From Pelodera strongyloides (lineage: Eukaryota > Nematoda > Chromadorea > Rhabditida > Rhabditidae), in assembly GCA_036852015.1 (NCBI GenBank), contig JAANDG010000114.1, positions 186,001-250,000 of the forward strand: 64,000 nucleotides of DNA, in the 5' to 3' direction. How positions within the stretch are numbered: position 1 is the first letter of the stretch; every line of letters begins with the position of its first letter. A model generated the notes under the pieces. The model saw only the letters and a program-made list of their open reading frames with translations. It was not told the DNA's origin and did no database searches. The position numbers and the translations under genes were made by a program. This document shows positions 10,223-55,158 of this stretch, piece after piece.

Positions 10223-13200
10223 CTATGACGGCAGCTGCTCCTCCTTTTCCTGCAAGGATAGAGGAAATTCACGCACCTAAGGCACAACTCACTTACTCAA
10301 ACTCCTACTTCGTTTATGAAGCTAATGCCGTTCACAAGAAGAGTTAACAAGAAATCAGTGATAAACGAATAATGAATGGCTGGCTCACCCCGTATAGCCG
10401 GCATTGCAGAAATATCTGGGTCAATTCAGGGAACGTTGTTTCTTGAATAACAAGGAACTTCTTGTCTTCCTTGAAACGACGCCTGCAATGTTTATGATGA
10501 AGCTCGTGTAAAGTTATGCATTTTCTATTTTAACTTCCTTTTGTGTCTTTATTCGATTGATTGACAACTTACTTGTGTGCGCATGGCGCGCAGTAGACCT
10601 CATACAGCCTCTTTTCCTTCCTTACATGGAGAACGTTGAATACCTCCTCCTAAATATATTCGTATTTATATGGGAAATTAATCATTAACAAAGATAAAGG
10701 TCGTGGAACGCTTACAAAAGTATAATCACAATAATATAGATCAAAGTTCGTTATTATACTTACGTCGCAAGTAATGCAGTATGGAGCGAAGTCACCACTT
10801 TCCCTTGATTGGTATTCGATACTCTGAATAAGCAATTGTAACACAAATAAGTCGGAGACAAAAGTAGACTTTGCTGCAGAAACACAACATAGCTAACTTT
10901 TCGCTGGTCATTTAAGTCGAAAAGCACGCGTGCAGTCCGCAATGCGGCAGGCGTGCTACTAGTCACGCGTGCCGCATTTTTTCTGCGTTTTTTTTACGCA
11001 AAGCTGTTCGTTTAAATATTTTCGTCTGCTGGTTTATTTTGCTTATTTTGCGTATTTATGTTTATTTTGCTTATTTATTGTTGTACTAATGTTTTGTAAA
11101 GCAGGCACTACGAAACAGAGTGCCAGCTATCAGCAATGAAAAAATAGCGGTGGCAGCAACGAAAAATGGATGGTGGAGGACAAATTTAAGCAGTAAGTGC
11201 GTTTTATTTACAATTTACAAAGCAGCTAATTGGTTGTCTGGGTGAGCGTTGCAATGTTGTCCATGGCATTGAAGTATTGTGTGATGCGTACCACGGACTT
11301 TCTATTGCATTTCAATTATTACCATAGCCTGTTTAATTAGAACGATTGGTTTGCAGTAAAACTTTTAGGCTGTGTCTTAGGATGTCTCATAAGGCTTTAT
11401 TCATAGAATATATGTTATGTGATATGTTCTACGTGACACACAATATGTATTTCAATGCCTTAAAGACACAAGCACTAAATTATTGCACTATTTTCGAATT
11501 TTTACCTCAGAACTGCCGAGCCCTTTTTAATGGTGTTTATTTAATTTTGAAGGGCAGGGCAAGGAGAGGAGCCTAATGGTAAGTTTAGCCGCAGGGTGCA
11601 CCGCATTCTTTCCCGCACGGTGCACTGCAGACCTTCCCGCATAGTGCGGCTGTAGACATACCCGCACGGTGCATGGCAGACTTTCCCCTCAGGGGCGGAC
11701 CTGCAAACCCACACCATGCGGGAAAGTCTGCAGTGCACCGTGCGGGTCAGTTGCAGAGATTTGCAGAAAGACAAATACGAACACCTGTGATAGGAGAAAC
11801 CAGCAAATAACAATTCGTATATATTATGAACGAACCTTTCCAACAGATTCCGCATACTTGGCCACCATCTTACAGTATGCTAGAGAACGAATGAGAACCG
11901 CCTTGACCGTCGAATACACACTCGGATTGGTGAATTTGACGTTCTTCGCGATTTGCCAGCATAGATGTTGCATCGGCACAAGACTTCGGTAGTTCTGAAA
12001 ACATTTCTTCACTAAAAAAAACATTTGCACCTGCCCTAGTGCCTATGTACCAAGGTAGCACGGGCATTATTTTCCTGTGGTCTCGATTACTGACAATCTA
12101 ACAAATAATGAATATACAATAATACATGAGAGGCTGAACTGAGCAAGAGATTACTGGGTAGCCAATTCCTGGGTAGCCAATTCCTGAATATATACTACGT
12201 AAACTACTCCGCTTAGGCGTTTTGACAAGTTATCACCTTGTTTTACTTTTATTTGCCCCTACGGCGGTTATTTTTAGTGGCTTTATTGACTTTAGTATTT
12301 TCTCTTTTCTTTGATTTTCCATTTACAATCACCTTTAATCAACTGACAGCATCATGCAAATGGAAATAAATTATTATTATTATTAGAAACGCAGTTTAAA
12401 AATAAATGAAAATGTAGCAAAGGTGGTAAAGAGTTACTAACCATCAACTTGTTCCATTCGTAACTCCGTAAGGCGACACAAAGCTGATGATTCGTTAGCG
12501 ATCCAATGTTCCACGATATATTTGCGCAGCATCCAGTCGCTTGTACCCAGTGAATGCACCCTGGGCCAACCCAGACAAGGTCTCCTGATTTCTGCGTAAA
12601 CCTAAATTTGTGACCATTGGTAAATGATAATTGCAACGAATCCAATAGAACTTTGTATTTCGTCGCTCGTTTGAAACTTATGGGCCATTGTAATGTTCTT
12701 ACCGATACACTGGGATGCCTTCCCGGATCAATTCATCAATGTCTGGCCACCATGAACCGGACAAAAAATCGACCTGAAGACAATCATTACACTACAAATA
12801 TGCTATGCATTATAACAATCGTCAGAATTGAAGTTATCACAACTACAACTTACAACACACGTTCGCAAAAAAAATTACCTTTCTTTCTTTACACATTTTG
12901 TTCATTCTGCTCCAGTGCTCGTAAGGGACAGCAAACCACTCGCAGTCACCCGGTCCGATGTTGATGTTCAGCGAGGCCAAACAGTTGTTTTCGACGTGGG
13001 CTGGTGTACGGGCATGTGGAACCTAGAAAAACATTATTGTCGCAGTCAGGAAGTGAAGTCAGATAGTGATGAATATTGCATGTACCTAAATTAAGGCTTA
13101 CTTGAATATTGCTACTCACCTTCATATACATTTGCACGGAGTTCATGCCTAGTATCGTGTAACCCAGATGGCTCAACATATCCGAAGCAGCACCAGGTCG

Positions 13201-14984
13201 ACAGAACGAGGGTAGTTTTTGAAGTTCCTGCAAAACAAAATTTAAGGAGCACCCAGTTTGCATAAGCTGGATCCAAAGAAAAAGTGCAGACAACGAAACC
13301 GGCTTATTTCCATCAGACCCGGCTTTTCCTGGTGTGCGAATACCCAGAACGAAATTCGAACTGCTCTCTCTTAATTATCAACTACAAACTACACCTCTAT
13401 CTTAAACAAGTTGAAGGTGTGCCATTTGCATAATACGTACGAAACGAACAAACCTGAAGTTGTTTGCCAAAAACGGAAGAGTCGGAAAGATCGATGTTGG
13501 TTCCAAATTTGATCGTCTTCACGGGAAGGTCTTCCGACCTCTTTTTCTTTGCACTCGACTGTTCGGTATTCTGAGCATTTTGCAGTTTTTCGCCATCTAC
13601 TGTAATATAATGTATTTTTTTAATAAGTCAATCATCAACAGGGTAGCTATTAGAGGATGCAATCCGTCTGTCAGATATAATATTCCCCACTCGGGAAATT
13701 ACGGGCCACATCTTCCATATAAAAACTAGAACGAAATATCTCACGTTGAACTTGGGCCTGATACGTGGCATACTCTCGCAGGGAACAAGAGCCAGGCTGA
13801 CTGTAGAATTCCCAAGTGGGCTGACCGGCTGCGTTCACATTCTGGTCGGTGGTTAACTCGTATTGGGTTCGAATCTAAAGTATCAGATGTGAGAACTTGG
13901 TTTAGATTAATCAGATCAGATATTTTGCACAGAAAAATGAGATAATCGTAAGCATAGCTCAAAGTTGGAAAGCTTACTTCTATCGACTGGTCAGGGATCA
14001 ACTCAAGCAAAGACTTCGTCGAGTAGAGACTGAGGTCCATTCTCAATTGATGAGTCAGCCCTCGAACCACCGCTATTGAGCACGATGGACTTTGAAGGTA
14101 CGTTTGCAGATTTACTAGTTGGGCTTCGTTCCGATTGTCAACAACTATCAAGGGAGTCGGCCGAATGCCACTGCTGTAGCTGGGTTCAACCTGAAAAGGA
14201 GATCAGATGGTCGTTGCGTAGACCATTCATCACAACAAAAAAAAACCAAGAAAATACTAAATTAAAAAACACAAACCTGACGGTCTGGCGAAATGCATGT
14301 CATATTAGCGGTCTTTAGCGGTAGTGTCTCTTCCTCGAAAATCGGTTTAAAGTTTTGTGAATTCTCCGTCCGTTTTTCACACATACTGTAGATTTCATCA
14401 GCACCAATATCAAGTGGAACCCGGAGCTGAAAAGGTGGAAAATTTCAATAGAATTTAAACGACATTTAGTTGAATAAAGCTTGTCTGGCCGAATGAAACA
14501 TTTGAAGGTTATCTGAAAAGTAATTAATGAAACATTTACCGGAGCAATGAGACTAAATTTCTTCGGTATTACTCCAATATCGGTCATGGGTAAAGTATCG
14601 ACTTGTTGATGAAATTCTTGCTCGCAAGTCACTTTCGTCGTAGAATTCATATCGTAGATGATTGTGCCTAAATTAAATTAAGTTCAAATTAAATATGTTC
14701 ATTGAATAAACATTTATTAAAACAATAACATCCTATGTTTGTCGAGAGTGATTTTGGCCGTATGGTAGTGCACTAATAAGCAACGCTGCAGCAAACAGCG
14801 TGCCTTTCACAACCCCAGAACGTACTACCCAAAAGCAGCAACTTGGTGGCGCATATAATTACTCACCAGACTCGTCTTTTTGGTGATGCCGTTTCGCAGC
14901 GGGGATTCCGGTCACCTCGCAAACCGCAGCTTGTCGGTGGTTCATTTGCTGCGGCCGCTGTTGTTGCTGCCGTTGCGGCTGTTT
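10223..14984 (-). CDS. TPR-less KDM6 (UTX/JMJD3-type) JmjC demethylase paralogue
   Basis: Fifteen exons (14867-14984, 14540-14667, 14277-14426, 13978-14190, 13745-13874, 13454-13599, 13120-13227, 12879-13022, 12703-12773, 12442-12601, 11836-11994, 10764-10823, 10573-10649, 10389-10482, 10223-10276) give 590 residues in frame from ATG 14945. The order and most exon lengths match the 3' half of the UTX gene at 21-25 kb (for example 213, 108, 144, 71, 160, 159, 60, 77 and 94 nt). The JmjC iron triad is present: H327, E329 (AHVEN) and H407 (CIHWVQA). Both zinc-binding cysteine pairs (YCITC, YCAPC) remain. The UTX motif GWCNN has become GCCAN. There are no TPR exons. The predicted role is removal of methyl groups from H3K27, requiring Fe(II) and 2-oxoglutarate, in the nucleus. 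The start is uncertain: the first exon is open to 14984 and could be joined to a further 5' exon. Confidence 0.85.
11589..11750. repeat. GC-rich ~24-bp tandem units with an inverted partner
   Basis: Three or four imperfect units begin with CCCGCACGGTGCACTGCAGA or close variants, spaced 24-25 bp apart. They are followed at about 11728-11747 by the reverse complement (GCGGGAAAGTCTGCAG, then TGCACCGTGCGGG). The two halves could pair as a long GC-rich hairpin. It sits inside the 1-kb intron between the 159-nt and 60-nt exons of the short KDM6 paralogue, an intron that is only 183 bp at the matching place in UTX. Confidence 0.7.
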
Positions 14985-15660: not shown

Positions 15661-15664
15661 CCTG

Positions 15665-16828: not shown

Positions 16829-16834
16829 CGGCCA

Positions 16835-21198: not shown

Positions 21199-24100
21199 CT
21201 AGGCAACCAGCTGAGCCTTCTTCACCTGTAACAAGAAAGTATTGAATAAATTACTAGAAAATATGTTAGCGGCTTGAAGAGGAGCATTTGTTGCTAGAAA
21301 TGGATACCATAAGTCACTATTTTGTCAAACCTGTAGTATGGAAGAAATAATAAAATCGTAGTATAAACCAAAGAATAACTCACGTAGTGTACTTGACATT
21401 GTTCGAATATCTTCGACAATTCGGAGAACGGAAATTGTTGTAAAACGAGGAACTGTTTGTCTTCTTGGAAACGACACCTGCAATTTGTAAATTAAGAAAC
21501 GATAAAATACCGATACGGTGTGCATCAAAGGACTCTAAAGTTAGCTGTCATAAAAGGAGTGACGGATACGACAGGTCGTCTTGTAAAAGGATGTTATGAT
21601 CACACAAAACAGGCGGTATTTTACTGAAAACATATAACTTACTTCTGTGCGCACGTCACGCAATAGACGTTGTAGACTTCCTTGTCCATCTTGACGAAGA
21701 GAACGTTGAAAACTTCTACCTAAAATTTTCGGGGTTTGCGTATGTTTGTTAATCACCCAAGCTGGATCTAGTTTACTACTCGATTCGCGTTAAGCAACTA
21801 ATCTGCCCAAATTGAACACTTACATCGCACAGCTTGCAGTAGGGCGGCGCTTCACCAGTCTGCCTTGTTTGGTACTTGATAACCTGAATAAGCATATATC
21901 ATACATATTATATTACAGTTGGCTATGTACTATTAAATTTTTCGACGATTGGGTGTAGCAAGCTAGTCATCTGTTTCTGTGTTCAGAGGAAACAGCCTGT
22001 GGGAACGCAAGTAACCGTTTTTAGGCGAATTCAGCAAATAACAAGTAGTATATATTATAAACGAACCTTTCCCACAGATTCCGCATACTTGGCCACCATC
22101 TTACAGTATGCCAGAGAGCGAATAAGAACGGCCTTGACCGTCGAATACACACTCGGATGAGTGAATTTTACGTTCTTCGCGATTTGCCAGCAAAGAAGTT
22201 GCATCGGCACAAGACTCTTGAAGTTCTGAAAGAAAATTCTTTGCCATGAGAAGACAATAACTATCAGATGCTTCAACGGATCCAGGTGTAGATAAAAAAG
22301 TGGGAAGTAAATAAGGTGGCAAAAAATTAACTAACCGCCTTCTTGTTCCATTCATAGCTCCTCAGGGCGACATCGATCTGATATTGGGTGACTGGACCAA
22401 CATTCCAAGCAATGTTGTTACACCAACCGGTCGCTTGGACCCAGTGCATGCATCCGGGGCCCACCCAGACCAGGTCGCCTGCTTTTTGAGTGAACCTAAA
22501 TTCGTAACCATTTGTGAATGAAACTCTTAATTGCAACGCAGTTCTAATTAGAAGTGTGTACTACGTCGCTCGATTGAAAATTAATCTTAAGCTCTATTGA
22601 AACTAAAAGAGGCCACTGTAGTATCCTTACCGATACACTGGAATGCCTTCCCGGATCAACTCGTCGATGTCTGGCCACCATGATCCGGAGAGAAAATCGA
22701 CCTGAAGTAATCATTACACTACAATTATGATATGCATAATAGCAATTGACAGATTGGAGTGATCAAAACTACAGCTGACAACACACTTTCGCAAAAAAAA
22801 CTGGAAAAAAAAGAAAGGACGGAGAAGTTGAATGTAAAAGTTACCTTTCTTTCTTCACACATTTGGTTCATTCTGCTCCAGTGATCGTAGGGGACAGCAA
22901 ACCACTCGCAATCACCAGGTCCGATGTTGATATTCACCGACGCAAAACAGTTGTTTTCGACGTGGGCTGGTGTACGAGCATGTGGAACCTAGAAAAACAT
23001 TATTGTTGCAGTCAGGAAGTGAAGTCAGATAGTGAAGAATATTGTACGTAACTAAATTAAGTCTTAATTGAATATTGTTACCCACCTTCATATACATTTG
23101 CACGGTGTTCATGCCAAGTATCGTGTAACCCAGATGGCTCAACATATCCGAAGCAGCACCAGGTCGGCAGAACGGTGGTAGTTTTTGAAGTTCCTGCAAA
23201 AAGGATAATAAAGGTAAAGTCGTTATATATTAACTGAATATGGAAAGCTGTTCTTGGGCATCTAGCCATCACACACAGCAACAAAAAAAAACATGTTTCA
23301 GACTCAAATGAACTGCGTAGTCAATTACATAAATAATACCAAGGAAACAAACAAACCCGGAGCTGTTTGCCGAAAACGGAAGAGTCGGAAATATCTATGT
23401 TGGTCCCGAATTTGATAGTCTTCACGGGAAGGTCTTCCGACCTCTTTTTCTTTGCACTCGGCTGATCGGAATTCTGGCCATATTTGGCTCCAGCCGCGCG
23501 CAGTTTCTCGGCTTCTTCTGCAATATTTTTTTCTAATTACAATTGAATTATAATCCACATGGGTGTCATTAGAGAATGCATCCTATTTGTACTAGGATCG
23601 TAATGATTGCGGCCTAGAAATTCCCTCAATTTCTGGTCAGAGCTTGCATATAAAAAATGAAGAAGAAATAGCTCACCTTTCAGACAATATTTAAACGTTT
23701 GGGCCTGATACGTGGCATAGTCGATGACCTTAGAAAAGCCAGGCTGACTGTAGAATTCCCAAGTGGGCTGACCGGCTGCATTCACATTCTGGTCGGTGGT
23801 TAACTTGTATTGAGTTCGAACCTAAATTATTCGATATTAAAACTTGGTGTAACCAGATATTGCCCAGATATTGCTACAAATGAGACTATCGAATGCACAA
23901 CTCAATGGAGAAGGGTTGAAACTAACCTCTATCGACTGGTCAGGGATCAACTCAAGCAAAGACTTCGTAGAATAGAGACTGAGATCCATTCTCAATTGAT
24001 GAGTTAGCCCTCGAACCACCGCTATTGAGCATGATGGACTTTGAAGGTACGTTTGCAGAGGTACTAGTTGTGCTTCGTTCCGATTGTCAACAACTATCAA

Positions 24101-27100
24101 GGGAGTTGGCCGAATACCACTGCTGTCGCTGGGTTCAACCTGAAAATGAGGAGCTTACAATAAGACAGTTGTAATGCACATTCACATAAACAACAGAAAA
24201 CCAAAAGACAAGACAACGAAAGGAATCCAATTCAAAGGCTCAAACCTTGATGTCTGACGGAACTTGCTGCATATTATGTGTATCGGGCGGCAATACTTCT
24301 TCCTCGAAAATAGGCTTAAAGTTTTGTGAATTCTCCGTCCTTTTTTCACATATACTGTAGATTTCATCAGCACCAATATCAAGTGGAACCCGGAGCTGAA
24401 AAGATGGAAAAAGTCGTATTGATTTTGAATCACAACTGACGCTATTGCCTCTGAATGTAGGACATCACAAGAATAATCAATAAAACACTTACCGGAGCAA
24501 TAAGACTGAAGTTCTTCGGTAGTATTCCAACAGTTGACGATGAAGGAAGATCGAACATCGGTAATGAATCGACTTGTTGATGTAATTCTCGCTTCATGTT
24601 TTCGTAAGAAGCGTTCCCCGGTAGCTTCATATCGTGCATAACCGAGGCTAAATTAAATTGAAATTAAATATCATTTACGCGTTTCTTAGGTCGGAAGCAG
24701 CATTACGTGGGGCGGTAGCGAAACAGCTATGCCCGCCACATCCATATAGTAATCACATTCTGAAAGAGATGTTCGTCACAGCGAGAAAGCCAATGTTACT
24801 CACCATGGTCTCCCTTTTGGCGTGCTAGTTCCTCCGCTGTCATTGGAGAAATACTATTCCGCTCGTCGCTTGGTCGCTTCATCTAAAATGAAACATTAAT
24901 GAGCAATGTATGATGATAATGTACAATTCAAATTAACATCAACAAACAAATATGGTAGAAATTAGCAAAGAAAATCTTTATAATTAGGTAAATATCCTGC
25001 TATACATACTTTAATCAGCTCTCCATGAAGGGTTGACGCTTCTGGAACGGCTGCTAGGTCATCCTTATTTCGGTTTAAAAGCTCATACACTGCGGCTTGT
25101 TGATGGTTCATTTGACGTTGCTGCTGCAACCAAAATACTACAATATAATACGAAGAATTTACCGAAAAAAAAAATGAAAAATGAATCCTCAGATTTAATA
25201 TAAGCGGTGAAATGTACTTACCCCATTGATATCCTTGTATGGTCGTTTCAGAATCCGTGGTTCTAGCTCTGTCATCGTCCACACCGCAGACCCTTCTCGG
25301 TAGCGATATTGCTTTTGCTGAATTAAAAAGCTAATGGTACTTTCCCCAATATGTCCTACTGCACACTCGCATCGTCACTAACCATCACTGAACAGCCCGA
25401 ACTCATCAGAATACGCAGCACCCCAAACACTCGTCACTAATCATTCAATATTATATTCGACAAAGTTATAAAGACCAAGTGTTAACCTACCAAACTAAAA
25501 TCGGTCTGTCGTTGTCGAAGTTCACTAGGGATAGGCTGCTGCCAGGCCTCCTTCAAACACGGCAACCTAAAGAAATACTTGCTAAAAGTGTATGGCTAGA
25601 AACAATGTTAAAGGAATAAAATGTGAATATACAAAAAGTGCAAAATTGAATCGTCATTGAAAACAAGTCAAATAGATCAATATTAAAATGTTAAGCTCAC
25701 TTGGTGGTAGCTGTTTTTCCAGGTGTTGGAGGAACAGTCGAAGCAGTAAGTTCCTTTTCCAGAACTTGAATAATCTGCTTCAGAGGGTTTGGAGCGCCTG
25801 CAAACGGAACATACAAGTAAAAAGAAACAATCATGTATCATTGTATATACCGTAATGTGTAGCTTTTGAAATCTTGCGATATACATAAATACTATCATTT
25901 TTCTCGCATAATTTGCGTTAATCGGTCGTTTTTTTCTAAAAAAAAACTTATGGTTCGCATTTATCGTACTATCATAAACAGAAGCGTAACCAGATGAGCT
26001 TATAGAATTAAAGTCCGGAAATGTTTAAAAGGTTACAATCACCGTATTTGCAACACTCAGGCTAATATATTGGCCTTTCAAGCATTAGATAATCAGCTAT
26101 TAAAAAGTGAAAATGATCTCCATTAATCGGCCAGCTACGTCACGTTCATTTTTCTTGATACGTTGCCTGTCAGGAAAACACTACGTAACTAATCGCATTT
26201 ACGTAAACGATGTTTCCACTAATGAGATATTGCAACATTCGAGTAAAAAAAACTACACTTGTATTGTTTTCGAAGAGAAAAGCACCTGGTCTCTACTTCG
26301 TCATAATAAGTGACAAAAAAAACTAGTAAAAAGAATGATGTTAATAAGTTGTGTGATATTAGGACTGCCTTAACAATAATGTGGATCAGTGTCAAAATTA
26401 CGCATTTTATAGAGATGAACTGGTCGGAGGATCTAATAAAAGGCGTGTAATCTCTTCGAGAATGTACGTAAGTTCCACGTGGGTGGAAAAAAATAAAACA
26501 TTGTTTTTGCTCGGCACTTTTCGAAAAAGTAGCTGGGTTCGAGGTGGGCGAAGAAAAAAAGCGAAGAACAACAACAAACACTCACTCAGTCTACACGTGA
26601 AAAGAAGAGAGAAATCCAAAGCAACAAAACGACTAAAATAGTAACCATAAGGAAAACACAGTATATATTACAACTATATGCAAATATCGCAAAAATGTCA
26701 TGAATTAAGCAGCACAAATAAATAGTGAACTTAAATAAGATAATAATTAGGGTTTGCCAAGTTCATTAAGCTTGAAAAAGTTGTGCAATTCAAGGAAGAC
26801 GCGCTACCTTGGGGAGCTTTCAGCAATACTTCGCACAGAAAAGGTACTCGCATAATCTAATAAGATCTAATATGAAAAAAGGCAAGGCACATATCATGTG
26901 CACTAATTCAAGTGACGCACTCAAGTGTGAGCAAAATAGTTATTAAGAACACCAATTCATAGAATGTGCACGCTGAGACAGTGACTCAGTGGTTATGAGG
27001 ATAATATGTAATTATTTATGAGCGTATATGAACTACTTGATTATGAACTTACCCAGACAACGGGCCGAAAATAAGACGGCAATTCTGTGAAATTTGAGTC

Positions 27101-30100
27101 ATTGAATTTTGGTTTGGAATTTAAGTTCCTCGGAGGGACCGGAAGCTTCACTTATCAGTTGTGATTACAGACGCACTAATGTACCGCACTACTGATAAGG
27201 GAAAGGGTCCTGGAACTAGCAGGAACAAAAATATCACAGCAGCTCATCTCTGAGAAATGCAAGAAAGGTATGGTTTTCAACATAGTCATATAATTGTTGC
27301 CCAAAAATGCACAAAATCATGGTAAGCTACATAAATATCTAGATAAGCATATACATATTACAGCAACAATACAACATTGTGCAAAACTTGGATCTGAGCT
27401 CTGCATACGTTTCAAGCAACATTTTTGGACTTCCTGAACAAGTGCAATTAAATAAAAAGATCGTGGTTTTCTGAGGTCTGAACTGACTTTTTGCGCACTA
27501 CACAACAACAAAATGCGTGAAAAACTTGACAATAACTGAGAAATGACGTGTCCTTGATGTTTATCAGGCGGTCTAAGAAGGAAGTGAGACGCAAACGATA
27601 CGCAATCCTTACTCTAAAAGATAGTCAAGTTTGGAACAACAGCAAGATATCCTATTCCTATAACGCTCTGTCCGACCAAAAGTCACTGTCTATATTTTCG
27701 ACGTGTAAACTACTCTTATTCGCTTATTACTGCTGCGTAGAACAAAGAACCAAGAAGCGAACGGATCAATTAGAAAAGCATGGACATCCATTCTTAGTGT
27801 TATTAAGAGTGAAACCTTCCTAGTGGAATTGGGTCAAGTGTTATGCCACCCACACAGCACAAACCGATGATTCAAAATCTTATCAGCTCACCATCAGGCG
27901 TCACCTAGGTTATCTTTGTGATCAAGTTTCTACTAGGCAACTACACCCTACACTAATAAAAAATATATACCGCATCTGAATATAACATCTGAATATATAT
28001 ATAAAAAAATATTTTACACTTGTTATATCAAGCGTTCCCAGTATTTACAACTCGCCGTTCGAATAAAAAATCGCTGGTAATTCAAGCATACCATAAATAT
28101 TGTGGATGGTAAAACAGAAAATATTCAGAAACTATTCTTCCCAAATAAAGAAACAACATTTTCCAAAAGAATCACACACTAAACTAGAAGCACGATTCTC
28201 AACGGTCGAAAAAGCAGGACTGTGACACATCATCCTTGAGATAAACTTGCACCGAGAAGCATTTGTCATCCATACTATGCATCATAAAAAGTAATAGCAA
28301 TAACAAAAGTATGTGAATAATCTTTGAACCCTTCAATGCATAAACACACTTTACATTATGCTAATAAAATGTTGATCAAAATTCAAGTAGTTTCTGAATT
28401 TCCCCAGGTGTGTCCAACATATTACCATTGGCATGCAAGTTTACGTTAACATGCTAATACATAAAAAGCTAATCGACTGGCTCACAACGATCCCGCCCCC
28501 ATTCAAATAGTACATTTAATTAGGCAGGCTTATCCAGTTAAGCCCCAAATCAGAAACATAGTATAGTGCATAGAATAGGGAAAATCTGGGTCGTACTAGT
28601 TTGGATTATGCAATTATGGAAGGTAACCAGGAGATTATACTAACAACAAGCAATTAACTAAGGAAGGAATATGTACACATCAGCGATCAGCCTTTGATTG
28701 AGCAAAACAACTCAGATTTGCAATCTACAAGACCTTACCTTAGTTCAAATAGACAATGAAGAGAGACAATAAGGCCGAACAACGGCCAATATAATTAATA
28801 ACTCATTAATAAAGTGTAGTTCCCCTTTGTAATAGTATTGTCTTACACAAAAGCATAAGAACCACAGAATGTAGCATAAGCCGAACAAGATTTATCACGA
28901 GCAAATCGTTTGATTATGGAATAATGGGATTATTATTGAATACTGCTAGTATTTTCTGATAACAACAAAACAAATGGCCAACATTACCAGTTGCTACCGA
29001 TGCAGTGTGAGAGCACACTAAGAAGTTCGCTTAAAAGGAGATCAGATTATCATGGGCGTCTCTAATTAAAAACCTGATCTTAGGAGTGCAAGGCCAGGAA
29101 GTGGTGTAAATGAACGTAGTTTGTTTTCGTGAATTACACTATCAGCTACGTAGCGATAATACGTCACCATTTAGCGAAGGAACAAAATATACGTCGGTTA
29201 ATTTGATCTAAACATCTCAGCGATGGTGTATTGTTGACCTTTGAAAAATGAAAAAATGTGCTGATTTTACTCTGGAAACTGTTGTTATACAAATACTTTA
29301 AAAAATCAAAAAAAATCCAACGTGTAGGTGAGACATAGACACTGAAGTGTTATTAATACTAATTCGACGGAGCAAGTTGTAAGTACATGATCAGATAAGT
29401 AGATAAGGGAGGGAGAGAAGGTGAAAGAGAGCGAGGGCACTAGCTGGGCTAGGGTTGTTCTAGTTTGTTCTCATGGCCCGACGCCATGCCGTCATCGCAA
29501 CATTTGGGACCGATCTAGAAGGCACATCTAGAAAGCAGAGGCTGTCAGATAAAGTCCAGGGAGCGTGCAAAAGGAGGACGGACAGAGAATAAGCCAAGTG
29601 AGTGAGCAAATAGAGAGGGTTGTGAGGGACCCCCTAGTCTAGCTACAAATAGCGTTCCATCTGAGGAAGTAGAACATGGCAAGGTTGATGATACTATGCG
29701 GTACATAGTAAACAATTAGGTTAGCAGTTGAGGTTTGTGAGATTTTTGCTATACATGTAGGAGGAACTCAGTTAACACCAGGTCATAGATTGTAAAAAAT
29801 TGCTAAATTTTAGGTTACGCTTTAGAGAGAACTAACATTATTCTCTAATTTGAGTATTGTGGTAGTATGCTGTGTCAAGAAGGTAAAATAGGGGGATTAA
29901 TGCAACATAATAGATCACATAATGCTCTAAACTAATGAATTATATAGGATTAGCAGAAGCTCCAAAACAAAACAATAATCACATACATTCTCATTGTCAG
30001 CCCCACACCCGCGCACTTTTACAAAAAGCAAGGGAAATGAAGCAGTAATTCAGCGCGGATATTAAAAAGTAATGATAATCTTCTTAGGGGATAAAGTAAC

Positions 30101-39982: not shown

Positions 39983-40345
39983 CTGCAACTTTTTGTCAAA
40001 ACCATTTGGACTTCTTTTGCTGCACAGCTCCGGTGATCTTTATTGATCCACTTGTGGTTGGCGTGGTCAGATAATTTAAATGTACCTATCTCTATACCAT
40101 TTCCTCTACATTCAACAACATTGTGAATCTATATATTTTGGATCATCATCACACATTCTTTATGAACACAGTTCATAAAGTTCACAGTTCATAGTTGTTC
40201 TGTAGGTTGTATGTGGATCTGAAGGGCTGTGTCGGTCATTGTTCTGTATATGTATTGATCGAATATGACTATATGACATTGGTCGCTTCTTATTGGGAAA
40301 ATTTCCGTCCAGTTTCAGTTATCAACTGATGCTGTTATTGTTAAA

Positions 40346-41098
40346 GAACACTTGTTTGTTGGCGTGTTACTTGAGGGATACCGTCATTTTAAAACAGATA
40401 GATGATGCTATCATGAGCTTCTTCTGCAATTGTTAAAGAAGCCTTGCTCGATCCTGATCCTCGTTTGTTGGAAATTTCTTGAAAGCAAAACTGTTCACTA
40501 AGAAGGTTATACAAGGAATTAACGCTAGTCGCTTAAATTATTCTTGTACACTGTTTTGTTTCTGTAATCGAGCGTCTCGTACACAGCCTTTCATATATTC
40601 GATACCAGTTATTTTGGTGCAGGTCCCAAAGTGCGTCGTGAAGCAGAGAGAGAGAGAGAGAGAGATACAGACTTTAATACTTTGCTGTCCAACCGCAGAT
40701 TCTAATTTTGCTTTACTCATCTCTTTTGACTTTATTTTGCTTCTCGCGCCGGTTGCACAGTTTTTACTGTTTATTGATACATTCTTTGCTTTCTTGCAAT
40801 ATACTTTCAGAATTACTTGAACGTTTACCAAACCTTGCTCTTGTTTAGATAGAAAATGAGTGCCCCGAGCTTATCGAATCACCAGGCACAGGTTCGTGAA
40901 ACTATTTTTGTTTTCCTGTGTTTGCTATAAGCTTTGTTTGTGAAGTAGAAAAAGATGTTATATGTGCCTATTGCTTGCCGTATTGTTTATGTATCGTTAA
41001 ATAAAAAGTACTTACAGGAGAATCGGACACATCAACAAGAGGTAGTCCTACAGTACGTTCTGGAAAATTGGGCCACAATGTACAACGATTCGCAATCA
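40346..41098 (+). pseudogene. Duplicated 5' end of the first KDM6-like gene
   Basis: This 753-bp block is repeated almost base for base at 41099-41851. It carries a full copy of the first coding exon (ATG 40856, ending at 40891) and most of exon 2, including ENRTHQQEVV. At the right boundary, after the bases encoding NDSQS, exon 2 runs into the start of the second unit instead of its own end, giving a short false tail. The differences seen are a two-base indel (ATCATGAGC/ATCAGAGC), a short change in the GA run and one base near CGCGCC. The event must be recent, or it is an assembly error. This copy could still act as an alternative promoter and first exon if spliced over exon 2. Confidence 0.8.
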
Positions 41099-41608
41099 GA
41101 ACACTTGTTTGTTGGCGTGTTACTTGAGGGATACCGTCATTTTAAAACAGATAGATGATGCTATCAGAGCTTCTTCTGCAATTGTTAAAGAAGCCTTGCT
41201 CGATCCTGATCCTCGTTTGTTGGAAATTTCTTGAAAGCAAAACTGTTCACTAAGAAGGTTATACAAGGAATTAACGCTAGTCGCTTAAATTATTCTTGTA
41301 CACTGTTTTGTTTCTGTAATCGAGCGTCTCGTACACAGCCTTTCATATATTCGATACCAGTTATTTTGGTGCAGGTCCCAAAGTGCGTCGTGAAGCAGAG
41401 AGAGAGAGAGAGAGAGAGATACAGACTTTAATACTTTGCTGTCCAACCGCAGATTCTAATTTTGCTTTACTCATCTCTTTTGACTTTATTTTGCTTCTCG
41501 CGCCGTTGCACAGTTTTTACTGTTTATTGATACATTCTTTGCTTTCTTGCAATATACTTTCAGAATTACTTGAACGTTTACCAAACCTTGCTCTTGTTTA
41601 GATAGAAA

Positions 41609-44600
41609 ATGAGTGCCCCGAGCTTATCGAATCACCAGGCACAGGTTCGTGAAACTATTTTTGTTTTCCTGTGTTTGCTATAAGCTTTGTTTGTGAAGTA
41701 GAAAAAGATGTTATATGTGCCTATTGCTTGCCGTATTGTTTATGTATCGTTAAATAAAAAGTACTTACAGGAGAATCGGACACATCAACAAGAGGTAGTC
41801 CTACAGTACGTTCTGGAAAATTGGGCCACAATGTACAACGATTCGCAATCAATAACTGCTTATTCGACTTTGATTAAGGTAGGCTTAGGATGTTTATTAG
41901 TCAAGTTGTCATCATATTGATTCGGCATTTATGCGTGCGTATAGATCATAACTGTGTGTCAATTAGTTCTTTATGCAATTCAGTCGCGTTTCAATTTTCA
42001 ATACAAATTGCAGATGAAACCGTACAAGGATGGGAAACTGATACCGTATAATGTCTCAGAGCTTGTCGAAAAGATGGTTTGCAGCAGTCAGGTAGACTTT
42101 CACTTTGCTTACAATTAGTTTTGTTATGTCAAGACAGTCCATTTCGTGGGATCAAACGAAATATAGCAGGAAAAGTTGTGCCACATAAATGTTAGGACAT
42201 TTTACTTTATTGTCCTTGCTTGATTAAAATCTTTTTAGTTTGCCAACAATGAAACGGTCCCATTCGTTGAGATTGGCGACAGTTTCACTCAGTGGTCAAC
42301 GCTCGAACGTGCCGTTGATGGAGTGAACAGATGTATTGTAGTGAGTGGCATCCATGATGCAATCAAGCTTGACCTAACTCTCTTCAGGGCAGACAGGCTG
42401 GTCAAGGATGACCCAACCCTGAGAAGCACAGTTCGTTTTTTTTTCTTTTCCATATAGAAAGGCTTTTTGTCATGATAGGGAAATACACATTTTCACATTG
42501 AATGCAGTTTTCACTCGGGAAATAGAACAGCAGGTCTATTGTTTAATTTTGTGCAGATACGCATTACGTGGTATGTTTCTTGAGGTGAAATTTACGTGAA
42601 CAGGGATGCATTCCTTAGAACTTACTGTTCACGATAAATTTTTAGGTATTTAAGCATCCAACGATTATTGATCCGTACTTGACTTTCAACTGTGCAGGCC
42701 TAGAGTATACAAAACGAATTATGGATTATTCAGCTATACGGATGAATTCTGTTATCAGAGGTAGATTTTTGTTTGTTTTTGTTCAACAAAATTTACGTAA
42801 CACACATTTCATCAGCGCGTCTGCTAATCTACTAACATAGGGTTTTTTGTCACATCTATATCGGCTAACATCATTTTATAATAATAATTTATTACACCAC
42901 AAAGGTGCGCACAAACATACACAATTAAGACAATAAATACAGTTAAGACAGAACCTATGTATGAATCTTGCGCAATCGTTTTCCTTGGCGCTACCCCCAA
43001 TGACTTGCATTTTTCTAGATACTTGCGATTCACAACAAAGCCCTTCCACAAAAACCGTTAGACTAATCCGTACCGATTGGAAGAGATTCGCTCACCTGAA
43101 GACAGTAAGTTGTTTAACATTATTTGTTTTGATATTACTGGGTTTCCTGGTTGTAAGGGGTGCTTTACCCAGTCAGGGGCTATTACATGTCGTGAACTGT
43201 TCAACAACGGACGAAGAAAAGTTGAGTTGTAATTTTGGTTAGACGAGTATACTGCAAAAAAAATGCTTTCACAGGAATGGCTGAAGATACCGTCTTTCCT
43301 GCGCCCGGACCATCAAAACTCGCTGTTACGACTTCAGGGACCAACAGTTTACGCAGATGCTTATCTTTTAACGCTAGTATGTTCATTTCTGTGCTCATTT
43401 TTATGTCTGACTAATGTCTTTCGGACTATTTTTTTTATGTCTTTCGGACTATTTTTTGATTGGCTCACGTTTTACATTTCTTTCAGTCACCGGGGAGTGT
43501 TATCCCTGAAGGCCCGCTCATCCCGACTACGTTGATTGTACTAAACTGTGGCCCCTGCTCGATTACTGTGCGCAGTCGTCGCACCCAATTGACGAAGAAT
43601 ATGGCACCCAACGCGCTGAAGAATTACAACTCCGCCATTCCGGTAATCTTTGATAATTTATGCGTGTTAAGAAAGATAGTAGTGCCAATGAAGGTGATTT
43701 CCAGCACACACACTGAGGATCTTAGTTCTTTTATTGCATGCTACACCGTGGTGTGTGAAACAACGTTTATTGTTAAAAAAAAACTCTGCTTTAGCACAAC
43801 GTGAGCGACCAAGCCTTGGATGCACATGGTATTCCTTACCTGACGTGAGTTTGTTCCATCGTTCGTCATATGTATTCCATTGACTGTCTACTTTTACTGT
43901 CCGTGTGGCATTTTAATCATTCATTATTTCAATTCTTAAATGAAATGCCCATGAACTCCGTCAATTTCAGGTATACGATTGGTGTCGGTGAAATTACGCT
44001 GATTCCGCCTACGACACGATTCCTGATCAAGAGTTATGGAGAAGCCAACGTGCTTATCTGGAGAGTTTCCTCAATGACTGACACCAATTTCGACAGGATT
44101 TTTATTGCCAGCCGCATTAACGTTAGGGTACGCTAAATTTCCTTTCCTTTTCAGGTTTATGCATTTAAACATATCCCAAAGCCGAAAAATATTGTGAAGA
44201 AATATTTCATACAACGAATTCTTTTAGGGTTTCCGACCGCTCAAGATGTGTCATGAAATTGTGAAGCTCGGTAAGGTCAGTGAGTCAGCACTGTACCATA
44301 CCGTGAAACGTAGATTTGTCACGTTTCTGAACCATGACAAGGCATTGATTGAATACGCAGTGGGACTCGGAAAGGTAAGTATGCACATTAATCAACGTTA
44401 TATAAGTATATAATAGCCGAATGCTTTCCATTTACGTTAGTTTGGCAGCTTCGACACGACCATATTGTGCAGATATCCGGCACGAAATCTTACAACATGT
44501 TTTAGGTCATCAGAAAGGCGTCAGAAATGGATCCAGAATATCACTCAGCACAAGATACCCCGTTGGGATGTTTCTGTCATATTTGCGGCGTGGGTCCATT

Positions 44601-45144
44601 CACAATAATATGTTATTTTACTAAAGAAATATTTTTATCACTTTATTCACCGACAAGTGTTTGCGGCTGCGAAGGCAAAAAAAGAAACGTTTCATTTGTT
44701 TAGGCAGAAGTCCACAACACTTTGGTTGTACGTAAAGAAGGATCCATCTACAAGCTATTTTGCTTCCACTGTGCCTATCGGCAAGTTTATTTTCTTTCCT
44801 GTGTCAAAATCATTACACTTAGGATGTGCTATGTTTGTGTTTATAGGCAATTGTAGAGAATGTAATAAATAATTAAGCATTAAAATAAATAAAAAGTAAT
44901 GCTTCTTCCAGGTGCTACTTTGAGTGCGACAATCGTTGCCTTGTCGTTCAGCACACCCCAGCAGATGAACTATCCAATTTGCTTGATGCCTACATTCTAG
45001 CGGCAAGTATTCGAACTGCTTATATTTTGACATAACACTTGCATTGCGCATCATGTTTTACTAACAATAGATTATCTTTCGGAAGATACAGGCAATATAA
45101 TTTATATAGACCAATCTAAATAGCCCTGCTTCCAGAACGAGTGA
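41609..45144 (+). CDS. Divergent KDM6-derived JmjC-like protein without iron ligands (gene C)
   Basis: Fifteen exons (41609-41644, 41771-41878, 42014-42091, 42239-42430, 42646-42760, 43019-43104, 43275-43376, 43487-43642, 43795-43844, 43971-44127, 44228-44374, 44506-44589, 44704-44780, 44912-45002, 45136-45144) give 495 residues in frame. Exons 4-15 match UTX exons 21-32 one for one in order and phase; exon 13 is 77 nt in both. Alignable landmarks are VVSGIHDAIKLDLTLF against [20 protein letters not shown] against NIGP, and LIWRVSS against IAWNVGP. At the HxE site the sequence is EGPLIP, and at the third ligand it is TTRFLIK, so no Fe(II) ligand remains. The four zinc cysteines persist (433/436 and 457/460). 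Two introns have GC donors (44781 and 45003). It has no TPRs. I infer a non-catalytic nuclear protein. The acceptor TTGTTTAG lies 7 bases before the ATG. Confidence 0.83.
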
Positions 45145-47099: not shown

Positions 47100-48340
47100 A
47101 AAAGCGTCAAAGTGTAGCATGGTCGCACGCCGCAAGTTTAGTGAAAGGGTAATTGTGTCTATGCGCCATCGTCTTCGAAAACAGGCAATCCCGGGTTGCA
47201 TTCGGCTTCTGCGATATTCCGCAGTGTCGGCGTTACAAATCATCATCTTGCCAAGATACGTCAGTGATCTGAAATATTTAAACCGATAAGCCATTAATAC
47301 ATGTATCCAATAGTAGATGTTGCTTTGATGAGCTTATAGATATTAAGATCATGACACCACATGCTTGGGTTGCTGCTGACGTTTGTTAAGCTTATGTGTC
47401 CATGAATTATAAATACTACCACATGTTTGCCATAGCTTAGGATTGTCTGTGAGACACTATGAAAACTTCATTGTCTAAGTAAGATAAACACAAAAATAAG
47501 CTTAAAACAAATTACACATAAGGAAGAACAAACTTGTAATACGATGAGTGGGATCTAAATGAACTTGTTCTCCTTGTAAGGGTAGGAGGATATGATGCTA
47601 TATTATCGCAGTAGGGGAGTAGCTCAAAAATAGCGTGACTCTAGAACTGAAAAAGTGAAGAATGCATCTACCTTGATCATTTTTCCATCAAAGTCGTTCT
47701 TCTACTCCTCGGCAATTCCTTCGTGCACCACGACGACCACATCATGAACAGATTCCTACGAGATGAACAGCTCATTGTGGAAGCTGAGCAATCAGGGAAG
47801 CCGTTGTCGTAATGCATCAGCTTGGTAGGGACACCGGCACGACGGAGACGCTCAGCATACAACCAGCCTGAAAACATTTGTTGTTCAATGAAAAAAAAAA
47901 CAGATAGAGCAGTTAGGTTTGTTTCCACAAGTGGGACGAATGAAGGGTCCAAGAGACGATTCTCGCGAATATTCTAAACAGAATCATTTGGTGAGTTTAA
48001 TGAATGAGGATGCAAGATACATTTCGTGGACCAGTTCTTACCTAATCGACTTCATTTGCTTCAGCTGCCACGCGAACCCGTCCGACAAGTGAATTGTTGC
48101 GGGGGATGATGGAGCGATCCAGAGCCTTCAAAGGCTTCTCGTTAAGGTCGCCAACGAGTGTATTCGTGCTGACATGTGGGTGGGATCTAACTTAAATCGT
48201 TGAACTTGAATATAGTGCGCGGCGTGGAAGACTACAACGTGTAATTATGACTTACCAATAAAAGCCGTGCCGTCTGGTGGAAGGGTGGGTCTTGTAGGAA
48301 GTGGAATTGCATCAAAAGGCAGATGCGAGCCTTAAGCATA
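47100..48340 (-). pseudogene. Pseudogene of the arylacetamide-deacetylase-like esterase
   Basis: Blocks matching exons 6 to 9 and the downstream exon of the gene at 57-60 kb appear in the same order and strand. The exon 6 match (about 48244-48335) has lost coding length. The exon 7 match keeps IIPRN and a degraded end, where NEVAM has become NEVD followed by a stop. The exon 8 match keeps LDPSF but lacks the stretch with the catalytic aspartate. In exon 9 the frame shifts right after the NGF that precedes the catalytic histidine. The exons carrying the oxyanion HGGG and nucleophile GDSAGG motifs are absent. It cannot encode a working esterase. Confidence 0.85.
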
Positions 48341-51728: not shown

Positions 51729-54700
51729 ATGGATTCCGAAGCAAATAATGAAGAAGACCAGAAGCCAACACAGGTTTGTGAAACTCATGTTTTTCTTTGA
51801 TATTAGGTTTATTTCTGAACTAGAACGTGATGTGTGTGTTAAGAAATTGAACTTTGTATATGTTACCTTTGGCTGAATGAAAATTTCTTACAGTTCCGTA
51901 ACTTACAAGAAGAATGCGTGCGTGAATTTATCACATACCATTGGAGCGAGCTGGCTAAAGATGAAGATGCAAATGCTGCCCTTCGCAAGTTGAACAACGT
52001 ATGTCGAATTACTCAAAAACTTTCCTACTTATATCATGCATATGTGTCGATAAGTATCGGCGTGCTTGAAGTCCACGCTATTTTCTATTGCGTTCCTTCC
52101 GTATATACCGACAATTGCAGAAGCATCCATACTGTGATGCGCCAGTTTCTCGATATGATCTCGACGAGTTTGAACAGGAGGTGTCTTCAAGATGCACAGT
52201 AAGCCTTCGCCTTGTTTTTGTTTGTTGTGTCGGTCCTTTCATGCCTTGGGTTTAGTTGAACCATCTAGGTGCCCGCGAACCCATGAATAAGAATATATGT
52301 CTTTGCGTATGATATTGAAGAAGCATAATATCTGCCAAAAGCTGAGACAGGATTCTAGCGGTAAAATGTTGAAGGAAGCAATAGTGCTGCATATTTGAGC
52401 AACCATCGCGTATGCTTTATCTTCGCGAAAGAAGTAATTACCTTTACTTGAATATTTGTAGGAATGGAACTACGCAGTTCCGTCGTTTGAATACACTGGA
52501 GAGTCAGAAGGTCGGCTGGAGGAATTGATTAAAAATGCTCACTCTTGTTTTGCCATCGAAGGCCTATTGGACTTCCAGGGTATTCGGCGTGAAGCCTTTA
52601 AGCCTGAAGAACTGATTAAAATCGATCCGCTGTACACTACCACCGTTAGTTTTTTTTGTTTTATTTTTTGAGTAAGACTCCTTCGGTCGTTCCTAAGGAA
52701 CATTTCTTTGCGTGAAACATGCAACATGCATTGGTAATTTCGCACACGATGCAGAAAGGCACAACAATATGGACAAAAAAGAGACTCCCCAATGAGTGTC
52801 CACCTATACCTTTCTAGCTTGCGGAGTATCCGTCTGATCAGAATAGTGAGAAGAATTGTTTGCGAATTGGTAAATTTGCACTTCGCCTTCTCCATACTTA
52901 CGCCCAAGAAAATATTGAGAATTTGATGAGAGGTAGGTCTTTTTTCTTTATGTTGCTGTAAGAAAAATCTTTCGCAAGCTGTATGCCAAACTTAGATGCA
53001 GCTGTTACCTCAAAAAAAAGGAAACATCAAAACTGTCTTGGCTGCTCACTGTTAGTAATTTGCTTTAGCTATGGGGCAAGGACGGCAGACCTCACCCCCA
53101 AATGTCGTAAGATACGGAATCGTAACCGATTTTCCCCGTCTAGCGTCAGTACGAGCGGTATGTTCCTTAACAATAGAATGGCCGATCTCGCTGTTGAAGA
53201 GACTCCTCTTCATTTATAGTTTATTGTCTCAATAATAGTCAACTACTTTCAACCTTTCACTCAGAAAACTCGTTTAGCCTGTCAAACCCGTTCGAGGAAA
53301 TCCTATTTGTTATAAGTAAACATATTTACAGGAATTGAGTAAGATTCCAACCTATCTGCTCCCTAACCACCACGAGTCTTTTCTGAGGATGCAAGGCATC
53401 ACGAAGCTTGACAGCCAATTCCTTTTCTTTTTGGTAAGTTAATTATGTACACTTGTTCGCTCTTGGCATGTAACTTTATCACTAACACCCGCGTTGTGAA
53501 CTGTGAACCTTGGATTTTACTCTTTTTAGGGGCCTGGAAGTTATCTGAAGGAGAAGGGACCCTTACCCACTGCGGTCGTCCTCTGCAACGTCGGTCCTTG
53601 CAGAGTGAAGGTGCGCGCCCGGATCTGCCAAATGACCAGTGCAATGGTCCCAAACGTCCTTGAAAAGAGTAAAATCGGCCACCAGGTAAATTTTAATAAT
53701 GATTTCATCATCCTACGTTCGGCTCAGCAGTTGCTTACTCGGATATTTTTGTGCCCATTGAGGTGCTTTCTTCTGGAAACGCATAACAGTTCAATATACG
53801 TACGGAAAATATGTTGATTATTAATAATGTTTCTTTAGAGCAACATCAGGACCAAATTATTAAGCCGACTTCGCATACCGTATTCCATGTAAGTTTTTTT
53901 GTGGCTCTCTGTGCTGTTGAGGACGCTTTCATGCGTCCCGCACAGTTGCCGAAGTTTCATTGGCACACTCTTGACTCATATCTGTTGATTACTGTTGACT
54001 TGTTCAGCTCATTCATGGGCTGACGTATAAACCATACTCCATCTCCTTACCCTCAGGATTGACGTGAAGCCGGGCCAGTTGTTGTTTGTTCCTGCTCTTC
54101 ACGTCTACCAGATTCGTACTGAGGGAGTGGCAACACTTTTGATGTGGCTCTACGCACCAATCACCGCGCCAAATCTGAACACGATCAGCTCATGGGGCCG
54201 CAATGCATTCATGGTACGTCGAGTAGTCGTTATCAGTATACAATTTTTGTCTTTCCTTTTGCTGAAAAGTCCGAATCACTTTATTTATGCGAGTGGTGAG
54301 GCGAAAAAGGATTACCTTTTTAGGGATTCCGGACACTCAAGGTTATATTAGAATTGATGAAGAAGGGCAAGTTGGACGACCAGCTGCTTTACGGATCGGT
54401 TAAAGCGACGGCCGCTTGTATGATTGTGCAGGACAAACTTTGGGCAGAGGAGCTACAGTCGGTGGGCAAGGTACTTGTAAAATATCGCAAAAAAACGATA
54501 GAGAATGCTGTTATTCTGTGATGATGATGGAATTGAACTAATTCAGGAATTGAACTAATTCACTTGCTTTTTATTCATTTAGGTCCTACTCCACCAGGAG
54601 AGCATGGACGTCGGTTACTACGAGCGCCAACATAGTCCATCAGCATCATTCTGTGACGGTTGCTCGGTAGGCTCTTGCTCATCATAATCGCCTAATTTTT

Positions 54701-55158
54701 CTGAATATAAAGATGCTTAACTCATTTGTGGAACGCACAAGATTCCATGTTTAGGCGGAAATTTTCAACACAGCTTTGGCGGAACGCAGCGGCGCTACAT
54801 ATAAGCAGCTTTGCCAAGGTTGTGCCCGAACGTAAGTGGTTTTCTTTCTTGCAACAAAAGAACAATTTATTGTACAGTGTCTTTGCAACACAGCAAGTTG
54901 AAGAGTTGGACACAAACATTTAATTTCTGTCTCTTACAGAGTCCCATATACAGAGGAACGCTTTCTGGCGGTACAAAGTATGTCGTATGAGGAATTATCA
55001 GCACTTTTCGACCAGTTCATCACGGCGGCAAGTATTCGTAATGTTTCTAATTAATACTCACTGCAATTGTTTTGCAACGAGTAAAAACGCAACGATGTTG
55101 ATTTCGCAATATATCTAGCAATTTATAAATTAAATAACCTTACTTTCAGAACGAATAG
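51729..55158 (+). CDS. Divergent KDM6-derived JmjC-like protein without the HxE motif (gene D)
   Basis: Fifteen exons (51729-51773, 51894-51998, 52121-52198, 52462-52644, 52818-52932, 53069-53157, 53332-53433, 53530-53685, 53839-53888, 54057-54213, 54324-54470, 54583-54666, 54755-54831, 54940-55027, 55150-55158) give 494 residues in frame. Exons 7-13 have exactly the lengths of those in gene C (102, 156, 50, 157, 147, 84, 77 nt), although the protein sequences have diverged strongly. KEKGPLPT replaces the HxE site. The third-ligand strand reads VPALHVYQIRTEG, with a histidine two positions off in an ungapped alignment. The zinc cysteines are kept at 433/436 (FCDGC) and 457/460 (LCQGC). The penultimate intron has the same GC donor (GCG|GCAAGTATTCG) as gene C, and both end in Asn-Glu-stop. 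I infer a non-catalytic paralogue; a changed activity cannot be excluded. Confidence 0.83.

Follow-up and report, generated by a model that had tools for sequence, protein, structure and literature searches.

Whether a gene of a histone demethylase family can lose its catalytic site and still be kept for its protein is the question raised by a group of KDM6-type genes in the nematode Pelodera strongyloides. The window analyzed here, the whole stretch of 64,000 nt at positions 186001-250000 of contig C114 (JAANDG010000114.1) in an assembly of 160 Mb in 1171 contigs, carries a UTX orthologue (gene B), a short JmjC-only copy on one side of it (gene A) and two highly diverged copies on the other (genes C and D, Table 1). 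A preliminary description made from the sequence alone had placed four KDM6-type genes in this order, with C and D opposed in orientation to B, and our gene models, A(-), B(-), C(+) and D(+), bear this out. Its further points, that all four genes fall within KDM6, that C and D form a clade and that both lack the Fe(II) site in open gene models, also hold up. Pfam, PDB matches and hhalign agree on the family, the clade has a support of 100/100 (to be taken with caution, both branches being very long), and every Fe(II) or 2-oxoglutarate (2OG) residue examined is gone from C and D except a glutamate of uncertain alignment. The observation of a four-gene KDM6 cluster is confirmed, and the interpretation given to it is partly supported. 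Our own reading, to which we assign a probability of roughly 0.6, is that the family in the window comprises UTX (B), a JmjC-only gene derived from it (A) and two pseudo-demethylases (C and D) that would be maintained and act through their zinc and helical module, with a fifth KDM6 gene elsewhere in the genome (E) changed likewise.

Genes C and D within KDM6 and their active site

Genes C and D were modelled from ATG to stop with no internal stop in either. Spliced alignment to a KDM6 profile under strict settings scored 168 for C and 163 for D, compared with 55 and 70, respectively, on the opposite strands and 53-84 in controls (12 random draws, several repeated, from four other 6-kb stretches of the window). 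Loose settings, run without controls, gave 335 and 299; they also gave 246 on the wrong strand of the gene E locus (L023), and our conclusions from profile alignment rest on the strict settings. Pairwise hhalign of C and D against 14 KDM6 proteins returned a probability of 99.0 with an E value of 2.2e-18 over 383 columns. At E < 0.001, the PDB matches of D and C were to KDM6A, KDM6B and UTY only, reaching 2e-8 and 5e-7, respectively, and the remaining listed matches had E values of at least 0.025. Protein identity is 30% between C and D, 23% between C and B and 22% between D and B.

Gene structure points the same way. C and D have equal phases at 13 of 13 introns and identical lengths in 8 of 14 exons, and the six length differences are all multiples of 3. 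Where introns are comparable with those of B, 12 of 12 phases are equal in both C and D, an agreement matched by 302 of 200,000 phase shuffles in a test that was not blind. Of the 12 comparable donors, an unguided run with the B profile at loose settings recovered 8 in C and 10 in D; the gene C donors at 43642 and 44780 were picked with D and B in view. We filed C and D as KDM6-derived because of this homology and gene structure, and not on the Pfam JmjC and KDM6_C-hel models. A possible GC-AG intron lies in gene C at 44781-44911 (GCAAGT donor), at a conserved phase-2 position.

The Fe(II) and 2OG positions in B are K691, T697, H700, E702, N710 and H780. They were matched to the HXE...H triad and the inhibitor-contacting Lys, Thr and Asn through the 3avr alignment and equal spacing; in UTY these three residues are described as contacting the carboxylate of an inhibitor in the 2OG site (PMC4140284). 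In the family alignment (121 rows including B), the residues K, T, H, E, N and H occupy the six positions in 116, 115, 116, 115, 119 and 112 rows, respectively. Gene C has L, I, a gap, E, T or V, and F at these positions, and gene D has L, L, a gap, E, L and Y, the alignment of E being doubtful in both. MAFFT puts the N-terminal linker of C and D wrongly, and our residue statements use an exon-by-exon alignment together with histidine counts per exon (Table 1). These counts are evidence of Fe-ligand loss that needs no alignment. The Fe(II) triad and the 2OG contacts are present in genes A and B, and the four zinc cysteines are kept in A, C, D and E. In these models C and D have lost the Fe(II) and 2OG sites and have kept the zinc cysteines and the KDM6 exon frame; with these residues lost, they should not demethylate via the KDM6 mechanism, as judged from their predicted proteins.

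Table 1. Positions of the KDM6 genes and their diagnostic exons (window coordinates unless another locus is named)
Feature	Position	Strand	Basis or remark
Gene A, JmjC-only KDM6 copy, 16 exons, 609 aa	10223..15408	-	spliced model
Gene A distal-His exon (GCIHWVQ)	12442..12601	-	gene model
Gene A HxE exon (TPAHVENN)	12879..13022	-	gene model
Gene B, UTX/KDM6A orthologue	21199..36364	-	spliced model and protein-guided 5' exons
Gene B distal-His exon (GCMHWVQ)	22336..22495	-	gene model
Gene B HxE exon (TPAHVENN)	22845..22988	-	gene model
753-bp tandem duplication, copies 40345-41098 and 41098-41851	40345..41851	+	0 mismatches, 3 gap openings
Gene C, diverged KDM6 paralogue, 14 exons, 501 aa, Fe(II) site lost	41609..45035	+	spliced model
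Gene C HxE-equivalent exon, zero histidines	43487..43642	+	gene model
Gene C distal-His-equivalent exon, zero histidines, F at ligand position	43971..44121	+	gene model
Gene C zinc-domain exons 44506-44589 and 44704-44780 (FCHIC ... FCFHC, four Cys)	44506..44780	+	second exon modelled with GC (GCAAGT) donor
Gene D, diverged KDM6 paralogue, 14 exons, 500 aa, Fe(II) site lost	51729..55054	+	spliced model
Gene D HxE-equivalent exon, without HxE, sole histidine penultimate	53530..53685	+	gene model
Gene D distal-His-equivalent exon, Y at ligand position, His two residues earlier	54057..54213	+	gene model
Gene D zinc-domain exons 54583-54666 and 54755-54831 (FCDGC ... LCQGC, four Cys)	54583..54831	+	gene model
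Gene E, fifth KDM6 gene, 13 exons found, 518 aa, Fe(II) site lost	L023 2864-6042 (contig C23)		spliced model

Constraint, origin and further losses of the Fe(II) site

The coding sequences of C (1506 nt) and D (1503 nt) are open throughout, compared with an average of about 26 stops and 0 of 2000 open frames for each gene after base shuffling, a result qualified by the models having been chosen to stay open. At the first, second and third codon positions, C and D have identities of 0.467, 0.556 and 0.325, respectively (0.25-0.27 when shuffled). Comparing B with C and with D gives the same order (position 2 above 1 above 3), and so does comparing E with each of B, C and D. Synonymous sites are saturated between C and D (proportion of synonymous differences, pS, 0.77), and therefore no ratio of nonsynonymous to synonymous divergence (dN/dS) is given for this pair. 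The codon-position pattern suggests selection on the proteins through much of their divergence; it indicates that C and D are under protein-level constraint and are not pseudogenes, and on this support they would be maintained as pseudo-demethylases. The opposite idea, that the two proteins diverged faster than neutral, had come from an adjoining block of DNA that is 73-85% identical between the two units compared with 30% for the proteins. It was rejected, as third positions near random with conserved second positions mean great age and constraint for both genes. The similarity of the adjoining block may come from its own coding constraint, from later exchange or from a separate event.

Between the C and D units, 6 of the 14 non-self matches have offsets of 9.98-10.26 kb; the intron 1 region is among them, as is the match that pairs 46.8-48.3 kb with 57.1-58.5 kb. 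The remaining ones lie at other offsets, some due to local repeats. The pair 46841-48335 and 57100-59030 corresponds to an Abhydrolase_3 (alpha/beta-hydrolase) gene on the reverse strand adjoining D and a 3' fragment of it adjoining C. Weaker relatives of this hydrolase gene were seen on other contigs. From this arrangement C and D look like old KDM6 paralogues that arose by tandem segmental duplication. The 753-bp tandem duplication at the 5' end of gene C, absent from the preliminary description, takes in exon 1 and part of exon 2 and is either very recent or an assembly effect.

Of the 23 matches of the B catalytic part in a search of the genome, 22 fall in the A/B region; the other is weak and lies on contig C23 (E 0.0014). 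At this locus, the KDM6 profile scored 442 on the strand of gene E compared with 76 on the other under strict settings, and 580 compared with 246 under loose settings. The intron phases of E (0,0,0,1,0,0,0,2,0,0,0,2,0) are those of the last 13 exons of B. Gene E matches KDM6B in the PDB (1e-36), has KDM6_GATAL and JmjC domains above their Pfam cut-offs and keeps 45 of 101 near-invariant KDM6 columns. Its 5' end is open, the acceptor of the exon at 3523 (AAG) is weak and the modelled part has no tetratricopeptide repeats (TPRs). At the triad, gene E has Q-x-E...Y, and at the 2OG contacts K and T have both become L and N has become Y; the zinc cysteines are kept. The Fe(II)/2OG set is accordingly missing. 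Gene E made the same kind of change as C and D, so that three KDM6 genes of one genome are without the Fe(II) site. As single queries on L023, C scored 174, compared with 91 on the other strand and 81 and 93 in controls, and D scored 100, compared with 77 on the other strand and 60 and 94 in controls; D alone therefore fails to detect E. Likewise, a genome search with D gave 13 matches, 12 on D itself and one on a C exon. Since it misses E and most of C, further distant KDM6 copies are not excluded by it.

Two simpler accounts of the genome were discarded. Pfam would confine KDM6 to the window, with KDM6_C-hel finding only A and B and KDM6_GATAL only B; both models miss C and D, and E was found by protein search. 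The other JmjC exons of the genome are not taken as KDM6 either. The eight Pfam JmjC matches comprise four on A/B, two on contig C753 and two on contig C139, and the one tested from each pair was KDM5-like and KDM4-like, respectively.

Public proteins were compared through the best 120 of 2846 relatives of the gene B catalytic part with E <= 0.001, and trees drew on 31, 25 or 42 of these 120. C and D join inside nematode KDM6 on a stem that measures 8.25 changes per column in one tree, where the two tips measure 3.36 and 3.97, and 7.65 in another. The end branch of gene E comes to 10 or 8.1, depending on the tree. The exact places of C+D and of E are left unresolved by the trees. A clade of C, D and E was not rejected with 25 public proteins (approximately unbiased test, p-AU 0.284), by which a single loss of the Fe(II) site is neither shown nor rejected.

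Loss of an Fe(II) ligand also occurs among the listed public proteins. We scored H700, E/D702 and H780 and counted HxD...H as intact, as in P0025, P0033 and the UTX-1 proteins of C. elegans and C. remanei. Nine of the 120 lack a ligand (P0001, P0037, P0040, P0041, P0042, P0053, P0055, P0082 and P0120), a count that reflects the top of one search and database gene models as given. P0032 was set aside for a gap over HxE, and P0007 (K to A, triad intact) was not counted. One of the nine is from the copepod Tigriopus (P0001) and eight are nematode by name or tree, namely, Dracunculus (P0040), Trichuris (P0055) and six of the Caenorhabditis group including Caenorhabditis nigoni P0082, three of these six being unnamed sequences placed by tree only. 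On the 44-row tree (42 of the 120 together with A and B), the losses need at least six changes. Loss of the Fe(II) site is thus not peculiar to this cluster. These proteins resemble C and D in having lost one or more Fe ligands and kept the zinc cysteines; in contrast to the short and far more diverged C and D, all nine bear TPRs in their database annotation and are otherwise ordinary UTX-like proteins.

Alternatives and possible function

Several observations weigh against our reading. The C and D models were refined manually, each in sight of the other and of B. Neither protein has a Pfam JmjC or KDM6_C-hel match at E up to 1, and KDM6_GATAL, the sole relevant family, falls under its curated cut-off in both. 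Near-invariant KDM6 columns are kept at 32 or 33 of 101 in C and 34 or 30 of 101 in D, and the invariants of the helical-domain exon at 1 of 6 and 0 of 6, respectively. With so few helical-domain invariants left, binding of histone H3 may be lost too, which weakens the proposed mechanism. Pfam output for C and D contains no TPR, and entry into the UTX complex cannot be assumed. A protein-database search with C and D (E up to 0.01) returned none of 4036 candidates as a relative, and one with residues 200-500 of D (E up to 10) returned none of 2334, so that the case for constraint rests on comparisons among C, D, E and B. As for gene A, 10 of the 101 near-invariant columns are lost, including W787 and N789 beside the distal histidine, and its activity is for that reason not certain.

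These searches also bear on the interpretation offered earlier. The orthologues of C and D it expected in related species were not among the candidates of either search, and its picture of a family within one 45-kb neighbourhood gives way to gene E on contig C23. As for its lineage-specific expansion, gene A groups with B to the exclusion of Mesorhabditis spiculigera, and this copy is lineage-specific relative to that species. Two outcomes had been named as speaking against it. Grouping of C and D outside KDM6 is not what we found. The other joined an absence of transcripts to one of related sequences in sister species, and its second half agrees with what the searches returned, although the codon-position pattern argues that C and D are nonetheless genes. 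Its comparison with Caenorhabditis is apt, C. elegans having utx-1 and jmjd-3.1, jmjd-3.2 and jmjd-3.3 according to PMC3342935.

That comparison opens another account, in which the orthologues of C and D, and perhaps of E, are JMJD-3.1, JMJD-3.2 and JMJD-3.3 of C. elegans and the genes described here have evolved fast, so that the cluster would be an old nematode one and only the loss of the Fe(II) site new. The four C. elegans KDM6 genes are reported to lie all on X with utx-1 very near jmjd-3.1 (PMC3342935), and our trees place C and D within nematode KDM6. However, a survey scored no JMJD-3 in Meloidogyne (PMC5934874), suggesting that JMJD-3 is not ancient in all nematodes, and neither protein search produced a relative of C or D. 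The comparison covered the 120 listed relatives of B, none of which bears the name JMJD-3. We regard this orthology as possible but rather unlikely.

The remaining alternatives concern what C and D are. Retained or newly gained chemistry in a cupin site with different ligands is improbable: although the profile alignment spans the barrel region and the ALHVYQ stretch of D puts a histidine two residues ahead of the lost ligand position, both active-site exons of C are free of histidine and the 2OG contacts K, T and N are replaced in C and D alike. Slightly less probable again is decay into pseudogenes, for which the very long stem and tips, the repeat that duplicates part of gene C and the lack of relatives in other species could be cited. 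About 1.5 kb of coding sequence in each gene free of stops and frame breaks (in models chosen to stay open), length differences in multiples of 3, second positions more conserved than third and four zinc cysteines kept in both argue against such decay. Chance similarity of some other JmjC or cupin family to KDM6 is scarcely credible; Pfam offers just a sub-threshold KDM6_GATAL match among relevant families, but the hhalign result, PDB matches confined to KDM6 at E < 0.001 and common intron phases all point to KDM6.

We therefore return to C and D as maintained pseudo-demethylases. In C. elegans development, the catalysis of UTX-1 is reported to be dispensable, catalytically inactive UTX-1 rescuing utx-1 mutants, and UTX-1 to work in a SET-16/MLL complex (PMC3342935). 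From this we infer that C, D and E would act without catalysis, most likely via their retained zinc and helical parts. The zinc domain of KDM6A is described as mattering for substrate binding (PMC4140284). A more specific proposal, that C and D bind H3 tails or chromatin through the zinc/helical module and compete with or modulate UTX-type proteins, is plausible at somewhat under even odds. Broader still, and tentative, is the suggestion that nematodes repeatedly turn KDM6 demethylases into non-enzymatic H3 or chromatin proteins, C and D being dedicated antagonists or readers that hold H3 tails with the zinc module; we would sooner doubt this than accept it.

Known systems offer partial likenesses. 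Gene B shares with UTX/KDM6A (C. elegans UTX-1, human KDM6A) the TPRs, JmjC domain, C-terminal helices, GATA-like zinc domain and catalytic residues, and A resembles the catalytic half, whereas C, D and the modelled part of E differ in lacking TPRs and the Fe(II)/2OG site. UTY/KDM6C is, as proposed for C and D, a KDM6 paralogue with a demethylase-independent function. Its activity is null or very low according to a review (PMC11241480) and weak according to PMC4140284; unlike C, D and E, which are far more diverged, it is described as retaining all three iron ligands as well as the residues for 2OG (PMC4140284). JARID2, a catalytically dead JmjC protein akin to KDM5, has conserved substitutions that end catalysis and acts with PRC2 on chromatin marked at lysine 27 of histone H3 (H3K27), as reviewed in PMC11241480. 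It belongs to another JmjC family, whereas C and D would be KDM6-derived and have no ARID domain in Pfam output. JMJD-3.1, JMJD-3.2 and JMJD-3.3 are likewise nematode KDM6 paralogues beside a single UTX and on the same chromosome as utx-1, but, unlike C, D and E, they are treated as demethylases of trimethylated H3K27 on triple-mutant evidence (PMC3342935). In the literature covered (titles and beginnings of abstracts, most subscription journals lying outside coverage), nematode KDM6 paralogues without the Fe(II) site were not found described.

Whether UTX acts mainly by H3K27 demethylation or independently of catalysis is an open question in the field. KDM6 paralogues that lack the Fe(II) site yet appear constrained, beside an intact UTX, together with the public nematode UTX-like proteins that lack it, would be a natural version of the inactive-UTX-1 experiment, and repeated conversion, if true, the natural counterpart of dispensable UTX-1 catalysis. 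C, D, E and these public proteins are testable candidates for non-enzymatic UTX function, and recurrent loss of the site within KDM6 makes the cluster more interesting.

Genes B and A and a neighbouring feature

The gene B model has 25 exons from 33947 to 21199 and encodes 954 aa in one frame with GT-AG introns and a stop; the start codon is not fixed and the 954-aa model is without one. Guided by five nematode UTX N-termini, 5 of 5 runs added TPR exons at 35153-35264 and 35557-35707. A further 5' exon at about 35933-35999 ended at 35999 in 4 of 5 runs, and the outermost one started from 36249 in 4 of 5, its other end varying over 36298-36364. Weak exons past 36.4 kb from guides P0002 and P0013 (2 of 5) were left out, and the exon at 31616-31719 has a possible alternative end at 31701. 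Pfam found JmjC (2.5e-30), KDM6_C-hel (9.8e-22), KDM6_GATAL (1e-15) and TPRs, and the best PDB match was KDM6A 3avr (E 1e-132). With both a TPR array and a KDM6 catalytic fragment in its predicted protein, gene B is the UTX orthologue. Among the 120 listed proteins, the nearest to its catalytic part by identity is that of Mesorhabditis spiculigera (65% over 97% of the query), followed by Auanema (59%). The longest intron in our models, 25798-30224 (4427 bp), separates the TPR half of B from the catalytic half and lies upstream of the stretch shared with gene A.

Gene A also runs from ATG to stop with no internal stop. Its DNA at 11.8-14.7 kb is 73-90% identical to 22.0-24.7 kb in gene B, and it scored 1816 in the KDM6-profile spliced alignment compared with 2174 for gene B itself. 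JmjC, KDM6_C-hel and KDM6_GATAL all pass their curated Pfam cut-offs; Pfam output contains no TPR for A, which sets it apart from UTX. At the B positions it has K, T, H, E, N and H. It also retains all four zinc cysteines, and 91 of the 101 near-invariant columns are kept. Divergence from B is 0.47 at synonymous and 0.12 at nonsynonymous sites, and the dN/dS of 0.26 indicates that A is maintained under constraint. The trees join A and B as sisters (support 100/99-100). Gene A is a duplicate of the catalytic half of B, still under constraint, and is probably an extra JmjC-only demethylase by its residues. A short KDM6 protein of Panagrellus (P0051) is sister to the long UTX of the same worm in the 44-row tree, so that short KDM6 copies have arisen more than once.

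Exon identity between A and B is patchy. Of the 11 exons of equal length, five have identities of 0.90-0.95 and one has 0.81, compared with 0.63-0.71 for the exons of the distal His, the zinc domain and the C terminus. This patchiness (10223-14426 against 21199-24395) would fit local gene conversion. Away from the KDM6 genes, the window carries two tRNA-Ser genes (anticodon AGA) at 2855-2936 and 3214-3297, which are near-identical (97% over 97 bp).

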